Shown piece after piece: positions 1 to 25,376 of a stretch of DNA of 35,223 nucleotides. Location: positions 1 to 35,223 of the forward strand of contig JAPLJZ010000240.1 of NCBI GenBank assembly GCA_026388335.1. The letters are read 5' to 3'. Source of the stretch: Deltaproteobacteria bacterium (GTDB taxonomy: Bacteria; Desulfobacterota; Syntrophia; Syntrophales; UBA8958). The position numbers and the translations under genes were made by a program. The notes beneath the pieces are model-generated. The model was given only the letters and a program-made list of their open reading frames with translations, was not told the origin of the DNA and made no database searches. The number at the start of each line of letters is the position of its first letter. Positions within the stretch are counted from its first letter, which is position 1.

Positions 1-2069
1 CCGGGCGGGGCGAGGGCCTTTCTGATCCGCTGGACCCGTCTTTCCGTATTGGAGAAGGTGCCGTCTTTTTCGACGAAACAGGCGGAGGGAAGAACCACAT
101 CGGCAAGCCGCGCCGTCTCGGTCAGGAAGATATCCTGGACAACGAGGAAATCGAGGTGTTTCAACGACGCTTCCACATGAGAGAGGTCGGGATCGGAGAG
201 CATGGGGTTTTCACCCATGATGTACAGACCTTTGATCGAGCCCTTGTGGGCTCCTTCCATGATTTCCATGATGGTCAAACCTGGTCTTGCCGAGAGCTTT
301 GCCCCCCAGGCCTTCTCGAATTTGACCCTGGCCTCGTCGCTGGCGACTTGCTGGTAGGCGGGGTAAACATTGGGCAGCGCCCCCATGTCGCAGGCCCCTT
401 GGACGTTGTTCTGCCCCCGCAGGGGATTTACGCCGCCCCCTTCGATGCCGACGTTGCCGCCGAGCATGGACAGGTTGGCGACGGACTTGACGTTGTCCGT
501 GCCGGTGATGTGTTGGGTCATCCCCATGGCATAGAGGATGGAGGCCCTGTTTGCCTGGCCGTACATCCGGGCGGCGCTCCGGAGATCCTTAGCCGGAATG
601 CCGGAGATCTTCTCCACGTAATCAGGGGTGTATTTTCCCACCGTCTTTTTAAGGGCCTCAAAGTTTTCCGTGCGGCTCTCTACATAGTCCTTGTCATAAA
701 GGTTTTCCGCGATCATCACATTCATGAGTCCATTGAGGACCGCTACGTCCGTACCCGGCGCCTGTCGGAGCCACAGATCGGCGTATTTCACCAGGTCGAT
801 CTCCCGGGGGTCGATAACGATCAGTTTGGCCCCGTGCTGGCGGACCGCCCGTTTCACTTTCATGCCGATAACGGGATGATTTTCCGTGGTGTTGGTTCCC
901 GTCGCCAGGATCAGGTCGGTAAATTCGATCTCATCGATGGAATTCGTCATTGCTCCACTGCCGAAGGCGGCGGCCAGACCGGCCACCGTTACGGAGTGTC
1001 AGAGCCGGGCACAGTGATCGACATTGTTGGTTCCGACCACCGCCCGCATGAATTTCTGGAAGAGATAATTCTCTTCGTTGGTGCATCGGGCCGACGAGAG
1101 ACCGGCGATGCTGTCGGCGCCGTCCTTCTTCTTGATCTCAGAGAACTTTTTGGCAATGAGCTCCAGGGCTTCGTCCCAGGACGCCTCCGTCAGCTCCCCT
1201 CCCTTTTCTTTGCGAATCAGGGGTTTCTTCAATCGATCCGGATGGTTGACAAAGTCGAGACCGAAGCGCCCCTTGATGCAGAGGCTGCCGCCGTTGGGCT
1301 GGGAATAATCCCGGTTCCCCGTAACCTTGACGATTTTTCCGTTGTTAATATTGAGATCCATCTGGCAACCGACGCCGCAATAAGTGCATGTTGTCTTGAC
1401 CTTCTGTATCTCCCAGGGCCGGCCTTTGAAGCGGGACTGCCTGAAGGTGATGGCCCCTACGGGACAGACATCGGCGCATTCCCCGCAGAAGAAACATTCC
1501 GAATCAATGTAATCGGCGTCAAAAGCGGGGCCGACCTTGGCCCGGGAACCGCGCTTGGAAAAATCGAGGACCTCATTTACCTGGATCTCGTTGCAGGCCC
1601 GGATACAGCGCCCGCAGAGGATGCACTTGTTCAGGTCCCTGGAAATCATGGTATTGGTCGTTTCCTGTTTGTATTTAGGAAACTGAATACTGAAGCGGGG
1701 TGTTTCCAATTCGAGCCAGTAAACAAGATTTTGCAGATCGCAATTGCCGTTTTGTTCGCAAGTCAGACAATTATGATCGCCGGAGGCCCAGAGCAGCTCC
1801 ACGATAAGACGCTGGGCATCGCGAACTTTCTTGGTATCCGTCCTGATAATCATGCCGGGGCTGACGGGCATGCAACAGGAGGCGACGAGGGAACGAGCGC
1901 CCTCGACGTCCACCACGCAGACACGACAGGCGCCGACTTTGGTTGTGCCTGGGTAATGACAAAGGGTCGGGATAAAAATCCCGTTTTCCCTGGCGACTTC
2001 CAGGATCATCTGACCCGCCGCTGCCTCCACTTCCCTGCCGTCAATTGTTATGGGGATCTTTTTTTCCAT
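1..2069 (-). CDS. fdhA: NAD(P)-linked formate dehydrogenase catalytic subunit, selenocysteine-containing (3' end beyond window)
   Basis: This subunit oxidises formate to CO2 (or the reverse) at a molybdenum or tungsten bis-pterin site and passes electrons through Fe-S clusters to the NuoE/NuoF-like partners encoded upstream. The 689 visible residues contain, in order, a plant-type [2Fe-2S] domain (C37, C48, C51, C65/C66), a NuoG-like cysteine-rich cluster motif near 98-110, two ferredoxin [4Fe-4S] motifs (CILCGRC and CFFCGEC), a CxxCxxxC cluster starting CTYCGVGC and the molybdopterin oxidoreductase domain. An in-frame TGA at 999-1001 is codon 357, in the context [13 protein letters not shown]. 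This matches the E. coli FdhF active site ARV-U-HGPSVAGL, and the frame stays open to the window edge. The ATG follows the ribosome site AAGGAG. Gene callers that read TGA as stop would split it. Confidence 0.93.
969..987 (-). promoter_or_regulatory. SECIS element of fdhA
   Basis: Directly after the UGA the mRNA folds into a fully paired 7-bp stem (GGUGGCC with GGCCGCC, one G-U pair) closed by the five-base loop GGUCU. Counting the U of UGA as 1, the loop occupies 22-26, the same loop sequence and spacing as the E. coli fdhF SECIS that binds SelB. It lies within the coding sequence. Confidence 0.92.
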
Positions 2070-19294: not shown

Positions 19295-19397
19295 GTAGAT
19301 GGACACAATGTCTAGAGCAGGTCATAATTTTCTGAATTGCAGTCAATTCCTTCAAATCAAGGCGTCAGTGACCCATTAGAGCCAGTGCATTGAATAC
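19295..19397 (+). repeat. Dispersed ~105-bp intergenic repeat, copy A
   Basis: It begins GTAGATGGACACAA and shares TGAATTGCAGTCAATTCC followed by TTCAAAT with copies B and C; the last third is diverged. It lies 85 bases after the dehydrogenase stop. Confidence 0.7.
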
Positions 19398-19541
19398 AAA
19401 AGGTAACCCTCACTTCACTCTTATTCCAAAAGTTGATGACTTGTAGTCTCCCCAACGTGCCGTTAACGCCTGTCAACGCTCATCGATGATCACGGAAAAT
19501 GGTTTTAAGGGGTAGCCATAGATTAGCAAAGAGGAAAAACA

Positions 19542-19576
19542 AGGGGCTAACCAAAAACGGCTAACCCCTCTTTTTT
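19542..19576. terminator. Bidirectional terminator next to the tRNA fragment
   Basis: AGGGGCTAACC and GGCTAACCCCT form an imperfect 11-bp stem with two mismatches. Six T residues follow on the plus strand, and the T-rich TTGTTTTT follows on the minus strand. The rest of 19398-19579 contains no gene I can support. Confidence 0.65.
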
Positions 19577-19579
19577 ATA

Positions 19580-19604
19580 TGGTGCGCCCAGCAAGATTCG
19601 AACC
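19580..19604 (-). other. tRNA 3'-end fragment (possible att-site remnant)
   Basis: On the minus strand the sequence reads GGTTCGAATC, TTGCT, GGGCGCACCA: a T-loop, the 3' acceptor strand and an encoded CCA. The bases 5' of the T-loop (GGAG) do not pair with the 3' T-stem strand, and no anticodon or D arm follows. It is therefore a fragment, not a tRNA. Such fragments are typical where elements integrate into a tRNA 3' end. Confidence 0.5.
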
Positions 19605-19636
19605 TCCGGCAAAGAGGTGGTTTTTTCAAAATCTCG

Positions 19637-19828
19637 TTATATTACTTTACCCAGGGACGCCAGAATATTCCCTGATACACCCATCTTTCCCCATTTTGTC
19701 TCAACCCAAAGGTCGGGGTCGGGGAAGATATCAATGCGATTCTTGCATTTAGGACAAGAAAGACCATATCCATACTGCAAAACCGCAAACTCCTTTTCAC
19801 AGTGCGGGCAAATACCTGTGTCCTCCAT
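19637..19828 (-). CDS. Small zinc-ribbon protein
   Basis: The 63-residue protein has two CxxC knuckles 19 residues apart, CPHC and CPKC, which can bind one zinc. A basic and aromatic tail (LWVETKWGKMG) follows. The ATG at 19828 has a strong AAGGAGG ribosome site; a longer frame to 19882 lacks support. The fold resembles FmdB-like or DUF-type zinc ribbons, but no family is assigned. It stands alone between the tRNA fragment and 270 bases without a recognised gene. Confidence 0.7.
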   Translation of the reverse strand: MEDTGICPHCEKEFAVLQYGYGLSCPKCKNRIDIFPDPDLWVETKWGKMGVSGNILASLGKVI

Positions 19829-20097
19829 AAGTTCCTCCTTTTGAATGTCTTGATTAACGCATTTTGCCGCGCTTCGTGGCATCCAAACTCATTGCAACCA
19901 ATGTCGGGTGCACTAAAAAACCTATTTTTCTGGGGCGGGGGGATACGACGGGAGGGCTTATTTGTCAAGAAGATTTTGACAGCAATTTTTTTATCGAAAT
20001 GGTATGATAAAAACTAATAATGTTGCTTATAAAACGTAGTAATCATCGGCACGAATAACGGCCATACAGTATGCGAATTCAAGCGAAGGGAGCACCG

Positions 20098-20457
20098 ATG
20101 AAAAAGAATGATGGCTCAAAGGACAATGAAGGAGACCATCGTCTGACGCGCCGTGCGGCGCTGAAAGCAGGTCTCGCCCTCGGCGCCCTGGTTTCAACCG
20201 GGAATCTTGCTGCTTACGCTGCACCGCCGGGCAGCGTTCATCAAAACGTTTCGGAGAAGGGAGGACCGGTAAAAATGGCGACCCGGTATGATAGGTTTTT
20301 CTTTAAGGACGAGAGCCTTGTCTTCGAGCTTATCAGGGTCATGGCCAAAACTCTCGAGCACGGGGCGGACATAGGAGAATCGCTCTCCACAGCATTCCGC
20401 ATCAAACAGAAGGTACATTTTGCTCCGCTAAGGGTTACGGTACTGATTTTCAAATGA
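20098..20457 (+). pseudogene. Truncated Tat-exported alpha/beta-hydrolase-like protein
   Basis: The 119-residue product starts after AAGGGAG and has a Tat-type leader (RLTRRAALKAGLALGALV) with a cleavage site near AYAAPP. The following segment, RYDRFFFKDESLVFELIRVM to GADIGESLSTAFRIK, resembles the beginning of exported alpha/beta hydrolases of about 400 residues. It then runs into unrelated sequence (VHFAPLRVTVLIFK) and stops. The catalytic domain is missing, so this is a gene remnant. The stop codon lies in a hairpin (20447-20470, TTTTCAA with TTGAAAA). Confidence 0.55.
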
Positions 20458-20550
20458 TTATCATTGAAAAATGTTCTTGATTTTTTATGAATAATAGCAC
20501 AGTTTTAAACCTAAATATGCCACTATCAAAGATTAAACTGGAAAGGGAAA

Positions 20551-20844
20551 ATGGAAGCAGATAAAAGCGAGTAGAACAAAAAGTATGCAAAGTTGATCGC
20601 CAAGGCTTGGAGTGATGAATCCTTCAAAGAGAGGCTAACATCAGACCCCAAGGCAGTATTGGAAGCAGAAGGTATCTCGGTACCCAAAGATGTAAATATC
20701 AGTGTTGTAGAGCAATCTGAAAAGCAAATTTATTTAGTTATTCCGCAGAGGCAAGATGATATAGCTATCGACATAGTAGAAGAGCGCAAAGCTGCATCTG
20801 CAGTTGGTTGTATTGCGGGACACTGCATTATGTGCTGGAAATAA
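20551..20844 (+). CDS. NHLP-type (nitrile-hydratase-like leader) RiPP precursor with in-frame amber codon
   Basis: The frame from the ATG at 20551 (ribosome site GGAAAGGG) has a TAG at codon 8 (20572-20574) and then stays open to 20844. The segment KLIAKAWSDESFKERLTSDP, then AVLEAEGISVPKDVNISVVE and YLVIPQ, is the nitrile-hydratase-alpha-like leader used by RiPP precursors. The C-terminal core AVGCIAGHCIMCWK has three cysteines and one histidine. No modifying enzyme or exporter is nearby. Either the TAG (one change from CAG) is a recent nonsense mutation, or translation starts at the TTG at 20593 (83 residues), which has no good ribosome site. Confidence 0.72.
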
Positions 20845-20991
20845 GAGGAATAACGAACGCAGCAAAGTGCAAGGAGGCGATGGTTGCGCTCAGGCCGGTA
20901 TGTATGAGCGATTAACCGGCTTCCATATGGCAGCGTGGTAATTATTGTTGGGAAAAGACATTAAAACGGTTATGATTGCAAGGAGATACCT

Positions 20992-21507
20992 ATGAAGAAA
21001 TCAACGAAATTGTTTATCCTAGGAATAGCCTTGTCAATCATTCCCGTTGTCGGGGCGCAGGCGCAGACCGGTTTAATCATCCGCGCGGCCGTGGGCGTGG
21101 TGAAGCATTTTACCAGTTCTGATGATGACCCAGGCGGCTATCAGCGCCATCCTCATCACCATCAAGAACGGGGAGATGGGGGAGGCGTCAAAGTGCAGCG
21201 ACAGGAAGTCGCTTCAGTGATTCTGGAGGCCGATGCTGACAAGGTATATGCTAAGTCCTTGAAGGTTGTTCAGGAAAACAAGAAGTTGCACATCATCGCC
21301 AGTAACGATGAGAGCAGGACCATCAATTTTACCGATGGTGAAAGAAATGTTGTGATGAAGGTGAGCCGCTTTCAGAATAATATCGCCCAGATTTTAGTGA
21401 GTGCCGTTTCCACTTCTGAAAAAGCGTCCAATACTTCCCCGGTAGTGGACGGCATCCTCAGCGTCTGCCAGGAAATAAACACCCGTTGCTCCGTAACCGA
21501 CGATTAA
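20992..21507 (+). CDS. Secreted protein with His-rich linker, paralogue of the lipoprotein encoded at 30726-31157
   Basis: The 171-residue protein has a Sec signal peptide with cleavage after GAQAQ (near residue 25), a His-rich stretch (RHPHHHQ, about 52-58) and a domain of about 95 residues. The domain shows DADKVYAKSLKVVQENKKLHI, then SNDESRTINFTDGE. It aligns with the lipoprotein encoded at 30726-31157 (NPDKVYAAAL, NDASRYIEFSEGE, CKELN). The pattern suggests a small periplasmic alpha-beta domain. Function is unknown. The ATG follows AAGGAG. Confidence 0.75.
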   Translation: MKKSTKLFILGIALSIIPVVGAQAQTGLIIRAAVGVVKHFTSSDDDPGGYQRHPHHHQERGDGGGVKVQRQEVASVILEADADKVYAKSLKVVQENKKLHIIASNDESRTINFTDGERNVVMKVSRFQNNIAQILVSAVSTSEKASNTSPVVDGILSVCQEINTRCSVTDD

Positions 21508-21569
21508 GTGCGATCGGCGGTTATAAATGGAAATCTTAACCGCAATTCTGAACGAAAAATTGTTTATAA

Positions 21570-21674
21570 GTAGATGGACACGAGGTCCACTGAATCTCCT
21601 TATTTTATGAATGGTAGTCAATTCCTTCAAATACAAGTCCTCACATAGGCAAATATGGCCAGCCAATGAATACC
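21570..21674 (+). repeat. Dispersed ~105-bp intergenic repeat, copy B
   Basis: It runs from GTAGATGGACACGAGGTCC to CAATGAATACCG and matches copy C along its whole length with few gaps. It lies 62 bases after a plus-strand stop codon. The remaining bases to 21889 show no gene I can support. Confidence 0.75.
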
Positions 21675-21889
21675 GTTCGAAAACGCGCATACACCTGAAA
21701 GCCAATTTCTTCCTTTTGGAGCGGATACGCTTCTTCCTGTATTCAATAATTGACGGATTCTGAGAACCGTGAGAGAACACAAAAAGTAATGCTTGCACTA
21801 CATTGATACCGCCGGGAAATCAGACGGTTAAAGAAGACAACAAACACCAACCAGCATTATTGAGAGAAACTGATCAACTCGACTCAAAT

Positions 21890-22846
21890 ATGGATACACG
21901 ACGATACTTCATTAAGAAAATTGCTATTGTGGCCGCTGCGCTGTGCCTCCCGGTTTCTCTGCCATGTGAAAACTTGGCAGCTTATCCTGATTTAAAAACA
22001 CGCAATCCGAAAAGAGTGCTGGTCTTATGGTATAGTCAGACAGGTCAGACGCGCAGGTATGCCAGGCTTATCGGCTGCATCCTGGAAGGGAAAGGTCTTA
22101 CGGTAGATGCACGTGATATGCAGGAATTTGATAAAAAATTACTGCCTAATTATGATCTCATCGTGTTCGGTACACCGGTATTTTATTATGATACCCCCTC
22201 CAATGTCAGCGAGTGGCTTAAAACGATACCTTCGATCGAAGGAACGCCGGTTGCAGCCTTTGTTTCCTTCGGTGGCCCGGAAGGCAATCAGTATAACTCT
22301 TCCAGTCACATTCTCAAACTTTTGGCAGGCAGAGGCGGAGTTCCTGTCGGAAGGGATACCTTTAGGAATGTTGCTTCGTACCCAACGCCCAAATGGAATA
22401 ACCCTAAACAGATTTCCGGGCAGCATCTGCCCGATGCAGGAACATATGATCAGGTGAGACGCTTTACAGCAGAAGTTATGAAAAGAATTACTCGCGGCGA
22501 AACAATTTCTGTCGGATATGAAGTGGCGTTGAGGGAAGGATTGAGTTTGCTGCCCTTGGTCTGGATGAACAAGAAGGCAATCAGCAAGCACACTGTTGAT
22601 GCAAAAAAATGTATTGGCTGCCAAACTTGCGTGAGAAAATGCCCAACTAAGGCCATCAATCCCTCCAAGCAAACTGTTGATCGGGATAAATGCTTGGCCT
22701 GCTTTGGTTGTTTGAATAATTGTCCTGCCGATGCTGTAGTTATGGAGTACAGAGGCGAGCGTCTATATGGTTTCCCGGAATATCTGAAGCGCAACAAAAT
22801 AACCATCATGGAACCGCCGGAATTTAAAACAGGCGAGTTATCATGA
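21890..22846 (+). CDS. Tat-exported flavodoxin-ferredoxin fusion (EFR1-like)
   Basis: The 318-residue protein starts with a Tat-type signal, TRRYFIKK (3-10) and the hydrophobic run IAIVAAALCLPVSLP. A flavodoxin domain follows with the FMN phosphate loop LWYSQTGQTRRYA and FGTPVFYYDTPSN. A C-terminal ferredoxin domain has two [4Fe-4S] motifs, CIGCQTCVRKCP and CLACFGCLNNCP. Cytosolic EFR1 proteins have the same order but no export signal. Folding with FMN and clusters before export fits the Tat route. I preferred the ATG at 21890; the frame opens at 21803 with TTG. Partner and role are unknown. Confidence 0.82.
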   Translation: MDTRRYFIKKIAIVAAALCLPVSLPCENLAAYPDLKTRNPKRVLVLWYSQTGQTRRYARLIGCILEGKGLTVDARDMQEFDKKLLPNYDLIVFGTPVFYYDTPSNVSEWLKTIPSIEGTPVAAFVSFGGPEGNQYNSSSHILKLLAGRGGVPVGRDTFRNVASYPTPKWNNPKQISGQHLPDAGTYDQVRRFTAEVMKRITRGETISVGYEVALREGLSLLPLVWMNKKAISKHTVDAKKCIGCQTCVRKCPTKAINPSKQTVDRDKCLACFGCLNNCPADAVVMEYRGERLYGFPEYLKRNKITIMEPPEFKTGELS

Positions 22847-22883
22847 TTCCACTGTCTTTGTGATTTTGAAACGTCGTTTACTT

Positions 22884-22986
22884 GTAGACACAAGGTCCGA
22901 TGCAGCTCCTTACTTTATGAATTGCAGTCAATCCATTCAAATACAACTCTACACATAGGCTGATCGGATCAGATCAATGAATGCGG
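22884..22986 (+). repeat. Dispersed ~105-bp intergenic repeat, copy C
   Basis: It shares GACACAAGGTCC, TATGAATTGCAGTCAAT and TTCAAATACAACTCTACACAT with copies B and D, and contains the palindrome CTGATCGGATCAG. It lies 37 bases after the flavodoxin-ferredoxin stop. Further on, CGTGATAT occurs twice (23074-23081 and 23102-23109) ahead of the small ORF. Confidence 0.75.
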
Positions 22987-23174
22987 GTGGAAAGGCGCAA
23001 ATATTTATCGGCAATATTTTTGTTCATATTGTCCCTCCACAACGTCCTTGAAAGTGTTAGACCGACAAATTCCCGTGATATGTTAGATTTTAAATGTAAA
23101 TCGTGATATTTATCGAAGCGTACTAAAGGCAATTGAATTAAGTTCCATTCTGTATAGCCGCTTTGGAGAGAAAT

Positions 23175-23321
23175 ATGGACTGGCTAAAAAATACCACAGA
23201 TACCACGCTTTTTAAGAAGAACGAGGTATCTTATTTCAGACAGGTCAACGGGTCACAAGATTTGTCTTATCCCGATCCAGATAAACATTGTTGGGGGCTA
23301 TCCGGGTTGGGTAATATCTGA
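23175..23321 (+). CDS. Small 48-aa ORF translationally coupled to the ECF sigma gene
   Basis: The ATG follows GGAGAG at good spacing, and the TGA is only three bases before the sigma factor ATG (TGAACAATG). The product begins MDWLKNTTDTTLFKK and ends WGLSGLGNI, with no membrane segment and one cysteine. It resembles nothing I recognise. The tight coupling suggests a leader peptide or a small regulator of the sigma factor. Confidence 0.6.
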   Translation: MDWLKNTTDTTLFKKNEVSYFRQVNGSQDLSYPDPDKHCWGLSGLGNI

Positions 23322-23324
23322 ACA

Positions 23325-23891
23325 ATGATATCTGTTGATTTCTCAAAGATACACCGTGAGTTCCGTCCAATGATTTTCCACTATTTGAACGGCATGGTGG
23401 GCAAGGATAACGCAGAGGACCTGACGCAGGTGGTGTTTGAGAAGATCAATCGCAGCTTGACCGATTTTCGTGGAGAATCAAGCCTTGCCACCTGGATTTA
23501 CCGCATCGCCACTAATGTCGCACTGGATCACAGCCGCTGCGTCTCGGTGCGCCCCAAGACAATATCCTTAGACACCATTGACGCCAAGTGTGAATGTTAC
23601 GTATTAAGTGATGAAAAGCTGCAAAACGCCGAACATGGCCTCATGAGGCGCGAAATGAATGCCTGCATACACCGCCTTGTCAAGCGGATGCCGGAGGGCG
23701 AACGCGTCGTCCTGATCCTCAGCGAATTCGAGGGGATGAAAAACCGTGAAATTGCCGATATCCTCGCAATCAGCCTTGAGGCCGTCAAAATCAGACTCCA
23801 CCGTGCCCGAACCAGACTGAAAAAGGATATCGAAGTTGAGTGTAATTTATCCCGGGACGAAAGGAACGAGCTCGTTTGCCACCCAAAGTAG
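23325..23891 (+). CDS. ECF-type sigma factor
   Basis: The 188-residue protein has sigma region 2 (about 10-80: DNAEDLTQVVFEKI, ESSLATWIYRIATNVALDHSR) and region 4 (about 115-170: MPEGERVVLILSEFEGMKNREIADIL, then EAVKIRLHRARTRLKK). Regions 1 and 3 are absent, as in ECF sigma factors. The C-terminal tail NLSRDERNELVCHPK carries one cysteine. No zinc-binding anti-sigma gene follows. It converges with the minus-strand selenoprotein genes, its stop lying 4 bases from the SECIS hairpin of the UXX-type protein. Its targets are not visible. Confidence 0.9.
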   Translation: MISVDFSKIHREFRPMIFHYLNGMVGKDNAEDLTQVVFEKINRSLTDFRGESSLATWIYRIATNVALDHSRCVSVRPKTISLDTIDAKCECYVLSDEKLQNAEHGLMRREMNACIHRLVKRMPEGERVVLILSEFEGMKNREIADILAISLEAVKIRLHRARTRLKKDIEVECNLSRDERNELVCHPK

Positions 23892-23895
23892 TAAT

Positions 23896-23912
23896 TCCGA
23901 TCAACTATCGGA
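23896..23912 (-). promoter_or_regulatory. SECIS-like hairpin in the 3' untranslated region of the UXX-type selenoprotein
   Basis: On the minus strand TCCGAT pairs perfectly with ATCGGA across the loop AGTTG. With the UGA at 23930 counted as 1, the loop is at 25-29. It lies beyond the real stop codon, as needed for a Sec two residues from the C terminus. Confidence 0.7.
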
Positions 23913-23918
23913 TTCTAT

Positions 23919-24134
23919 TCACACTCCTCAAACGCCGCCATATCCGATTGTTATCTGCCCCCTTTCCACAATCACGGGAATCTGCCTGACACCGTTGGTG
24001 AGTTTGAGCATTATTTGGAATTGTGCACTATCCTCCCCCACGTCGATGTATCTCGTCCTCTTCCCATAGGCCGATATAGCCTTACCGGTAAAAGGGCAAG
24101 CCGCCTTACCGTAAATAACGATCTCATCCACCAT
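23919..24134 (-). CDS. Glutaredoxin-like UXX-star selenoprotein, C-terminal Sec-Gly-Val
   Basis: The ATG at 24134 follows GGGAGG. The 71-residue product has a glutaredoxin-like fold: EIVIYGKAACPFTGKAI with Cys13, then NGVRQIPVIVERGQITIGYGGV. The TGA at 23928-23930 would end it at residue 68. Reading it as selenocysteine gives GGV-U-G-V before a second TGA at 23919-23921. A terminal U-x-x-stop is the defining feature of the UXX-star family, whose Cys members I recall ending GGTCGV. A SECIS-like hairpin follows. It lies 39 bases after the MerB-like gene, so the two are probably cotranscribed. A redox partner role is inference. Confidence 0.83.
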
Positions 24135-24173
24135 GACAATTATACCTCCCTTTCGATTAAAACCCGCCAAAAA

Positions 24174-24878
24174 CTATGGCAAGGTTGGATTCCAAAATGC
24201 CGCGTTACGCGTTACTTTTTTAAGATTCTCAAAAAATAGAGGGGCATAGTTTGGCGTCGCCGAGACGTAATTGCCGCTCAAGCGTGCCTGATGACGAGGT
24301 GTGCTTACAATCGCCATGACATCCGCAAGCGAAAGAATAGCCTCGTCCGTTCCGGCACCATACTCTGCCCAGTTCCGAACATGTTCTTCCGACCGGAAGA
24401 GATGGATACGACTTCATGTATAAGGCCAATCTTTCCCCCATCTATCCATAGGAATATCGACATAACCGCATATTTCGGACGGGCTTTGATTTTCAATAAC
24501 TCCGTCGCGTACTACTACCCGCATTTGTTTCCCGCAATCCAAACAAGGTGCATCAATCTGAATTGTTTTACCCGGAAAGACCCAGCAGACCGCCAGGGCT
24601 TCGAACCCTCATTGGGCAAACCATTTTTGATGTCCGTCAATGGTAATATGGTATTGATTGGGGAGGTTGTGGAAAGGTGCAAACGATGCGATTATGTCCG
24701 TATTCGGGTATAACCAGATCGGGAGCTTCGTGTTCATCAACTCATGAAGAAGCTTCTTGCCATCATCAGGGCTTATGGAAAACGCCTTGGCAATTTCGGT
24801 AAAATGCGGGGCACGCCCCCACTTTACAAAATACTCCATAATGAAATGATAGGTTTTATCTTGTTGGGTCTGATCCAC
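24174..24878 (-). CDS. MerB-like (alkylmercury lyase family) selenoprotein with two selenocysteines
   Basis: From GTG at 24878 (ribosome site AAGGAGG) one frame runs to TAG at 24174-24176, 234 residues, broken only by two TGA codons: 24609-24611 (residue 90) and 24414-24416 (residue 155). Residues 1-75 are a winged-helix-like domain as in MerB. Then come FAQ-U-GFEALAVCWVFPG, CLDC (112-115), CGYVDIP and WPYT-U-SRIHLFRSEEHVRNW. U90 and U155 match MerB Cys96 and Cys159 (spacing 65 versus 63), with E93 at the Asp99 position. Family-like sequence continues after each TGA with no frameshift, and each TGA has a GGUC-loop hairpin. MerB cleaves carbon-mercury bonds; the substrate here is inferred. Confidence 0.87.
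24385..24400 (-). promoter_or_regulatory. SECIS element for Sec155 of the MerB-like gene
   Basis: In the mRNA UCUUCC pairs perfectly with GGAAGA across the loop GGUC, at positions 23-26 after the UGA. CAU and AUG can extend the stem beyond a small internal loop. Confidence 0.85.
24582..24596 (-). promoter_or_regulatory. SECIS element for Sec90 of the MerB-like gene
   Basis: CUGGC pairs with GCUGG (with two G-U pairs), extendable by one C-G pair, across the loop GGUCU. The loop is at positions 21-25 after the UGA, one base from the fdhF spacing, and its sequence equals the fdhF loop. Confidence 0.85.
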
Positions 24879-25175
24879 ATCTCCCTCCTTGTTTATACTT
24901 ATTTAATCTCAATTTAATACTATAATAAGGCAGTCAATCCTCTCTTATTAGATATCTAACGGCAGTGCCGCGATTACCCCTTTTATATCTGCTTAGACGT
25001 AAGAAAAGAAAAAAGGGTACATTGTAATAATATATAATTTTACGGAGAGCCGTCTCCACATCCTCGACTTAATCAAGAACGTTGATATATGAACATCTAT
25101 CTTCAAAGCATCAGCGGTTCAGCGGAAGCAGTAGCGGGGCACAAGCACGCAGAACTTGAGCCTTTGGTTACGGCT

Positions 25176-25284
25176 TTAGATGGACACAAGGGCCGGAGCA
25201 TCTTATCTTTCTTACGATCCAAACTCACCGAGCCCGGGTTCAAATACAACTCTACACATCGGCTGATCGGACCAGAGAACTGAA
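25176..25284 (+). repeat. Dispersed ~105-bp intergenic repeat, copy D
   Basis: Both ends match the other copies (TTAGATGGACACAAGG at the start; TTCAAATACAACTCTACACAT and GGCTGATCGGACCAGA later), while the middle is diverged. The rest of 24881-25376 holds the upstream region of the MerB-like gene, with a TTGACT box at 24932-24937 (minus), and no gene I can support. Confidence 0.7.
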
Positions 25285-25376
25285 AACTGGTTGAAACAAA
25301 AATTCACAAGAAGAAGTTTTTATTGGCATGGCAGCTTTAAAAAGGTTATTATGATGCCAAATAAGGGGGATGCATC

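Follow-up and report, generated by a model that had tools for sequence, protein, structure and literature searches.

The gene at 24878-24174 on the minus strand of the window (the whole 35,223-nucleotide stretch of DNA analysed here) appears, with good support from comparative evidence, to encode a functional MerB-fold selenoprotein in which both in-frame UGA codons are read as selenocysteine (Sec), each by means of its own SECIS hairpin. Although it looks broken, the double-TGA gene is apparently intact and belongs to a protein family that is conserved among bacteria. Its landmarks are as follows.

24174-24878, minus strand: double-Sec MerB-like protein gene (234 aa, from a GTG start to a TAG stop; TGA in frame at residues 90 and 155)
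24884-24890, minus strand: AAGGAGG ribosome-binding sequence ahead of the GTG (from sequence reading)
24609-24611, minus strand: TGA codon for Sec90, at the MerB Cys96 column (from frame and profile alignment)
24414-24416, minus strand: TGA codon for Sec155, at the MerB Cys159 column (from frame and profile alignment)

A conserved family with two in-frame TGA codons

A sequence-only reading of this DNA had described, without naming a strand, a single frame with TGA codons at residues 90 and 155, a spacing of 65 residues and a Glu at residue 93. Translation of 24878-24174 bears all of this out in a minus-strand frame that begins with GTG at 24878-24876 and ends with TAG at 24174-24176; read on the plus strand, the interval yields no meaningful protein. 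The GTG column is an ATG column in 15 of 20 homologues, the frame of the remaining five having been begun at an inner Met. The read-through protein scores 68.8 bits against Pfam PF03243 (MerB; cut-off 27), the match running through both TGAs, and a six-frame search of the host's own genome with PF03243 returned this gene as the sole match (52.2 bits).

Relatives were collected from named genomes with two peptide patterns, and 80 of the 137 found were kept, giving 81 rows together with the window. Columns 90 and 155 hold TGA and TGA in 78 of the 81 rows and Cys followed by TGA in the other three; homologues with Cys or Sec at both columns, which the sequence-only reading had named as support, make up the entire set, and close homologues lacking them, which it had named as a refutation, do not occur in it. 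One row (L100) has 31 masked bases within the gene, with both TGAs present in its own frame; when it is left out, 77 rows are Sec/Sec and three Cys/Sec, and the codons at the two columns amount to 157 TGA and 3 TGC, with neither TAA nor TAG. Column 155 is TGA in all 80 of these close rows, and Cys is found there only in distant relatives. Another row (L075) is cut off by the end of its contig.

A search of 155 genomes belonging to the same order gave matches to the protein in 26 of them at E<=1e-8, in 29 places. Matches containing TGA occur in 24 of the 26, while the other two genomes (G031 and G032) hold relatives without stops. Both TGAs are present in 21 full-length places (L002-L022), one of which (L021) has a third TGA at its end. 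The remaining places comprise one with two TGAs and an extra TAG (L023), a partial one with two TGAs (L028), two partial ones with one TGA each (L024 and L025), a short end piece with no TGA (L030) and three of Cys type; L023, with its extra TAG, and L024, with an altered C-terminal end, appear damaged. Many of the named-genome loci come from the same genomes as the order-set loci, and the two counts are not additive. Searched against 395 genomes of the phylum, the family profile found matches in 40 genomes at E<=1e-6. Each of the 27 places with a score above 230 bits holds exactly two TGAs; of five partial places at 109-163 bits, four hold one TGA and one holds none; and among 18 places below 100 bits, 16 are free of stops and two have one TGA. 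Some genomes carry several double-Sec MerB-like places: two each in G291 and G229, and three in G235.

The hosts, as labelled, are mostly deltaproteobacterial or Desulfobacterota MAGs, with further labels including Nitrospirae, Chloroflexi, Lambdaproteobacteria, Poribacteria, Alpha- and Betaproteobacteria and others. The gene is absent from all seven listed genomes of the same genus, and its distribution is therefore patchy. Plasmids yielded merely six weak matches, all below 26% identity. Protein-level constraint differs little across the three segments that the two TGAs delimit: over 355 pairs, mean pN was 0.137, 0.166 and 0.180 from the first segment to the last, and pS was 0.73, 0.69 and 0.69.

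Hairpins after the two codons and decoding of UGA

24581-24597, minus strand: SECIS-like hairpin 1, loop GGUC(U), with GGUC at 24588-24591, +21 from the U of UGA (comparative)
24385-24400, minus strand: SECIS-like hairpin 2, loop GGUC at 24391-24394, +23 from the U of UGA (comparative)
3-2069, minus strand: formate dehydrogenase alpha subunit with one in-frame TGA, running off the window edge (TIGR01591, 673.7 bits, cut-off 666.25)

The GGUC loops that had been described at +21 and +23 lie at just those positions, and comparative evidence points to a SECIS-type hairpin downstream of each UGA, with weaker covariation at residue 90. With L100 left out, GGUC occurs at +21 after residue 90 in 64 of 77 TGA-90 rows (13 are without it) and at +23 after residue 155 in 76 of 80 rows. 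Codon choice is skewed at the hairpins relative to the background of the same genes: Arg162 is CGG in 78 of 78 cases versus 24%, Ser163 is TCG in 76 of 78 versus 20%, and Ser94 is TCG in 59 of 61 versus 20%. Standard pairs make up 96.7% of the stem after residue 155, where four pairs are changed on both sides in 17 cells (distinct rows), and 98.9% of the stem after residue 90, where one pair is changed on both sides in nine cells (distinct rows). The covariation score was reached by none of 500 shuffles at either hairpin, the shuffles ignoring relatedness; both the codon-bias and the shuffle tests take rows as independent despite shared ancestry.

At the residue-90 hairpin, two of the five measures did not exceed what shuffling gave (440 and 342 of 500). 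The both-sided change there concerns one pair and is confined to 13 rows of one clade, and therefore probably represents a single event. Averaged over 80 rows, folding energy is low downstream of both codons without singling them out: they rank 8 and 3 among 210 residues. When the window's own two regions were folded singly, their stability was no better than that of shuffles (z 0.62 and 0.34), and the minimum-energy fold after residue 90 in the window is a different hairpin. Rfam gave no match at the gathering threshold anywhere in the window.

The three rows with Cys at column 90 (L058, L075 and L110; codon TGC) have no GGUC at +21, yet retain GGUC at +23 after TGA-155, and in two of the three a C-G pair of the residue-155 hairpin stem has been exchanged for U-A. 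In the tree they cluster together within the Sec/Sec rows (fork 100/94; the whole-family fork is 92/89, not starred). The simplest reading of these rows is that Sec was changed to Cys and that the SECIS belonging to that codon was lost along with it. Column 90 is Cys in 3 of 80 close rows, which gives the pattern by which a bacterial selenoprotein would be recognised, namely a UGA at a Cys column of its homologues.

The host genome encodes Sec machinery, with selA (601.8 bits), selB (392 bits) and tRNA-Sec (75.6 bits) all over cut-off. Of 14 control genomes, five also scored above the cut-off of the tRNA-Sec model, but ARAGORN calls the match in the host genome tRNA-Sec (anticodon tca) and the genome's second match tRNA-Ser. 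The presence of selA is not discriminating: it occurs in 137 of the 155 order genomes, among them 23 of the 24 that carry the MerB-like gene. The claim that this genome decodes UGA as Sec in fdhA also holds: the gene at 3-2069 on the minus strand is a formate dehydrogenase alpha subunit with an in-frame TGA, its N-terminal part being NuoG-like. Of the 15 window genes examined, six end in TGA as an ordinary stop; among the 15, LptF, LptG and enoyl-CoA hydratase are names that we assigned ourselves.

Fold, metal-site columns and relatives

An AlphaFold2 model built from 51 aligned family members had a pLDDT of 96.2, and all 11 PDB chains that Foldseek returned for it at E<=0.001 are MerB. VIA-align gave Z 16.9 to MerB2 5c17 (192 residues, 3.6 A) and 15.9 to MerB, with identity of 15-20%. 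Residues 1 to about 70 resemble the winged-helix domains of LexA, MntR and DtxR (VIA Z about 3 to 4.7). In a profile alignment with experimental MerB structures, residues 90, 112 and 155 fall at Cys96, Cys117 and Cys159 of the usual MerB numbering. The same numbering is used in PMC8261052, which describes Cys96, Cys159 and Asp99 as essential in MerB. The proposal of the sequence-only reading that Sec stands at both catalytic Cys positions of MerB is thereby supported, and it is also backed by the predicted fold, the Cys/Sec exchange at column 90 and the hairpin after each TGA. Residue 93, at the place of Asp99, is Glu in 78 of 80 rows, Asp in one and Lys in one (L053), whereas Cys112 is found in all 80 rows and Cys115 in 79 of them (L100 left out throughout).

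By Pfam gathering score and predicted fold, the protein is placed in the MerB superfamily (PF03243). Like MerB and MerB2 (PDB 3f0o and 5c17), it has the fold, a winged-helix part at the N-terminus and all three metal-site columns, but it differs in having Sec for Cys96 and Cys159 and Glu for Asp99, and in its genome lacking MerA over cut-off. When the residue criteria for canonical MerB given in PMC8261052 (Cys96, Asp99, Cys117 and Cys159) are applied, the only literal match is at the Cys117 column (Cys112), the other positions being Sec90, Glu93 and Sec155. The canonical MerB models are not reached either (NF009710, 21.9 versus 193 bits; NF033555, 18.4 versus 200 bits); no NCBIfam model matched at its cut-off, and beyond SaoL and these two MerB models nothing appeared up to E=1. 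Three Cys/Cys MerB-like proteins of the phylum, read from the places below 100 bits (L153, L154 and L156), are similar in their N-terminal part. Unlike the double-Sec family, they have Cys at both columns and no in-frame TGA, score 89-91 bits against the family profile and form a separate branch.

The closest named comparison is SaoL (NF040728), the MerB-like organometallic lyase of the SAO system, to whose family the sequence-only reading had suggested the gene might belong. The relationship stands, in that SaoL is likewise a MerB-superfamily selenoprotein with Sec at the Cys159 column and both proteins have a CxxC in the Cys117 region; membership of the SaoL family does not. SaoL has one Sec, with Cys at column 96 and Asp at 99, whereas the double-Sec protein has Sec at both columns and Glu for Asp, and the residue before the second Sec is Cys in SaoL (the CU motif) but Thr before Sec155. 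SaoL is listed with one Sec and the motif CU in Table 1 of the 2026 review PMC13188914. The assignment of the protein to SaoL was rejected on its score of 39 bits against a cut-off of 140, together with Sec at both columns and the lack of a CU motif.

SaoL itself exceeds its cut-off in 2 of the 395 phylum genomes (L158, 175.7 bits; L159, 148.1 bits). In both, column 96 is Cys, column 99 is Asp and the Sec of the CU motif falls at the 159 column, which was placed by eye against the conserved motif that follows it; GGUC was not found after the SaoL UGA in either. No sao-family match occurred among the part of the window's ORFs that was scanned, the sao gene names for the SAO system being those in PMC13188914. 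Sec at the 159 column is, as judged from the alignments, shared with SaoL-like proteins; Sec at the 96 column is seen only in the double-Sec family. A further MerB relative (L162), in which Cys96 and Asp99 accompany a Sec at the 159 column, scores 54.8 bits against the SaoL model, below cut-off, and possibly represents another single-Sec MerB group.

We regard the protein as a putative MerB-superfamily selenoprotein, distinct from SaoL, with Sec at both metal positions. A MerB with two Sec is not described among the literature matches listed, as far as their accessible text goes; a mention in the SaoL or later selenoprotein papers of Haft and colleagues, or in supplementary material, is possible. 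The words MerB and SaoL are absent from the main text of the deep-Sep paper, and the word MerB is absent from the main texts of two papers, of 2008 and 2016, which the reviews give as their source for a MerB-like selenoprotein. Placing two Sec at both metal positions of the MerB fold amounts to a natural redesign of a well-studied active site, conserved among many anaerobe species, and the family makes it possible to ask what advantage Sec brings over Cys in a metal site.

Genomic surroundings and proposed chemistry

Taken as a whole, the evidence is probably best explained by a double-Sec MerB-fold selenoprotein whose two selenolates bind an organometal and whose chemistry splits the metal-carbon bond. 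By homology, the Sec pair and Glu93 should act as their counterparts do in MerB, with the Sec pair as softer and more acidic ligands. The selenolates at the Cys96 and Cys159 positions would bind the metal of the organometal, for which R-Hg+ is the first candidate and another soft organometal is possible, and Glu93, in place of Asp99, would serve as the proton donor. Splitting of the metal-carbon bond would release R-H and leave the metal on the Se-Se pair; with no MerA in the genome, it would either be handed on to further carriers with thiols or selenols, of which the neighbouring UXX-star selenoprotein may be one, or be retained. By analogy with MerB, the most likely role is cleavage or capture of organomercury or another soft organometal in anaerobes without MerA; the lyase activity, substrate, product route and UXX-star partnership are all predicted attributes. 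Selenols in general bind mercury more tightly than thiols, and the Sec pair would be expected to do so too; very tight Se-Hg binding could hinder turnover. Glu for Asp99 (Lys in L053), the lack of MerA over cut-off and the lack of a conserved operon count against this explanation, as do the weak link to mercury methylation, the thin covariation and the 13 rows without GGUC at the residue-90 hairpin, and the poor folding of the window's own hairpins.

The possible partner lies directly beside the gene:

23919-24134, minus strand: UXX-star selenoprotein family 1 (glutaredoxin-like; NF041114, 91.6 bits, cut-off 72)

This gene starts 39 nt downstream of the MerB-like gene on the same strand, and its product, which has a different fold and belongs to a different family from the MerB-like protein, ends U69-Gly-Val-stop, with the Sec TGA at 23928-23930 on the minus strand. 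In a one-query tblastn of the available flanks, the two genes stood side by side in 1 of 81 loci, namely the window itself. No conserved operon was found across the 81 loci, the commonest neighbour cluster occurring in ten. Genes for CCG-domain, FAD-oxidase and Fe-S proteins form a neighbour set present in 10, 7 and 9 of the 81 loci, respectively; a C_GCAxxG_C_C cluster is present in eight and a LysR cluster in four. Among loci with genes listed, AhpD-like genes adjoin two members (L049 and L052) and methyltransferases adjoin two others (L053 and L056). MerA exceeded its cut-off in 2 of the 155 order genomes and in 1 of the 24 with the MerB-like gene; no MerA over cut-off was found in the window's genome, and the usual mer route is therefore absent from it.

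The main rival to bond cleavage is a metal trap, in which the two selenols bind Hg(II), methylmercury or another soft metal very tightly and store or deliver it with no bond split, which we regard as unlikely. Two selenols at a metal site would suit such a role, as would varied genomic surroundings and a genome in which no MerA over cut-off is available to accept a product. The UXX-star neighbour fits as well, for in PMC13188914 the Sec of its family is said possibly to be a metal ligand or to bind other substrates. However, the acidic residue three positions after the first Sec is kept as Glu or Asp in all but one of the 80 rows, which would be superfluous for a pure trap, and the MerB fold has been retained.

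Less probable again is a MerB-fold enzyme that acts on an organoarsenic, organoselenium, organotin or non-metal substrate in thiol or selenol redox chemistry. The AhpD-like, C_GCAxxG_C_C, methyltransferase and Fe-S/FAD oxidoreductase genes near some members are compatible with this, and the AhpD-like neighbour of L052 resembles the AhpD domain of the arsenite methyltransferase/AhpD selenoprotein (45 bits, far below the 510 that this model requires), but each such neighbour is present in few loci and the MerB metal columns are retained as Sec/Sec/Glu. We give little credence to a soft-metal sensor or regulator whose N-terminal winged-helix part binds DNA or a partner while the Sec pair senses the metal: the likeness of that part to LexA, MntR and DtxR would agree with it, but according to the tool Z under 8 may signify only a common arrangement, and MerB itself aligns over the N-terminal part (Z 16 to 17, from model residue 1 or 5 to 201). 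A decayed MerB gene with two chance stops, or a genome-wide reassignment of TGA, is hardly credible, for although standard annotation would break the gene and two order members appear damaged, the paired TGAs recur in nearly all rows with TAA and TAG never in their place (80 rows counted by codon), constraint extends throughout the gene, the hairpins are conserved, and TGA still serves as an ordinary stop in the window.

If the double-Sec protein does cleave organometals, it may be a selenium-dependent methylmercury demethylase of anaerobes, found also in hgcA carriers, that is responsible for some of the mer-independent methylmercury breakdown in anoxic habitats and has been missed by surveys; this is a tentative extension that we think rather doubtful. 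In that case the surveys would have missed the gene for two reasons: they judge MerB by Cys at 96 and 159, and annotation ends a gene at UGA. The MerB surveys PMC8261052 and PMC12997803 test for Cys and Asp signatures, and the sequences for the search profile in PMC9948709 were selected by the two Cys; we infer that all three passed over double-Sec genes. PMC12997803 names mer-independent demethylation pathways, and its reference list includes Oremland et al. 1991, whose title ties sulfate reducers and methanogens to methylmercury decomposition. The double-Sec family is a concrete candidate gene for methylmercury breakdown in sulfate reducers, methanogens and the like.

The host genome also carries hgcA (464.6 bits, cut-off 275). 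The link of the MerB-like gene to mercury methylation is weak and not robust: hgcA was found in 18 of the 24 order genomes with the gene versus 61 of the 131 without it (p=0.014; stratified by family, p=0.18), and hgcA over the family cut-off in 17 of 24 versus 58 of 131 (p=0.025). A separate partial hgcA match below cut-off (G131:C56:20526-21065) contains one in-frame TGA and is perhaps a Sec form or a broken gene. Elsewhere in the window, positions 20593-20844 on the plus strand encode an NHLP leader-peptide family RiPP precursor (TIGR03793, 71.1 bits, cut-off 50.9) with a Cys-containing stretch at its end, and the region 19302-25296 contains dispersed repeats of two overlapping families, 74 and 58 nt long, with three copies each at 61-84% identity to the reference copy.
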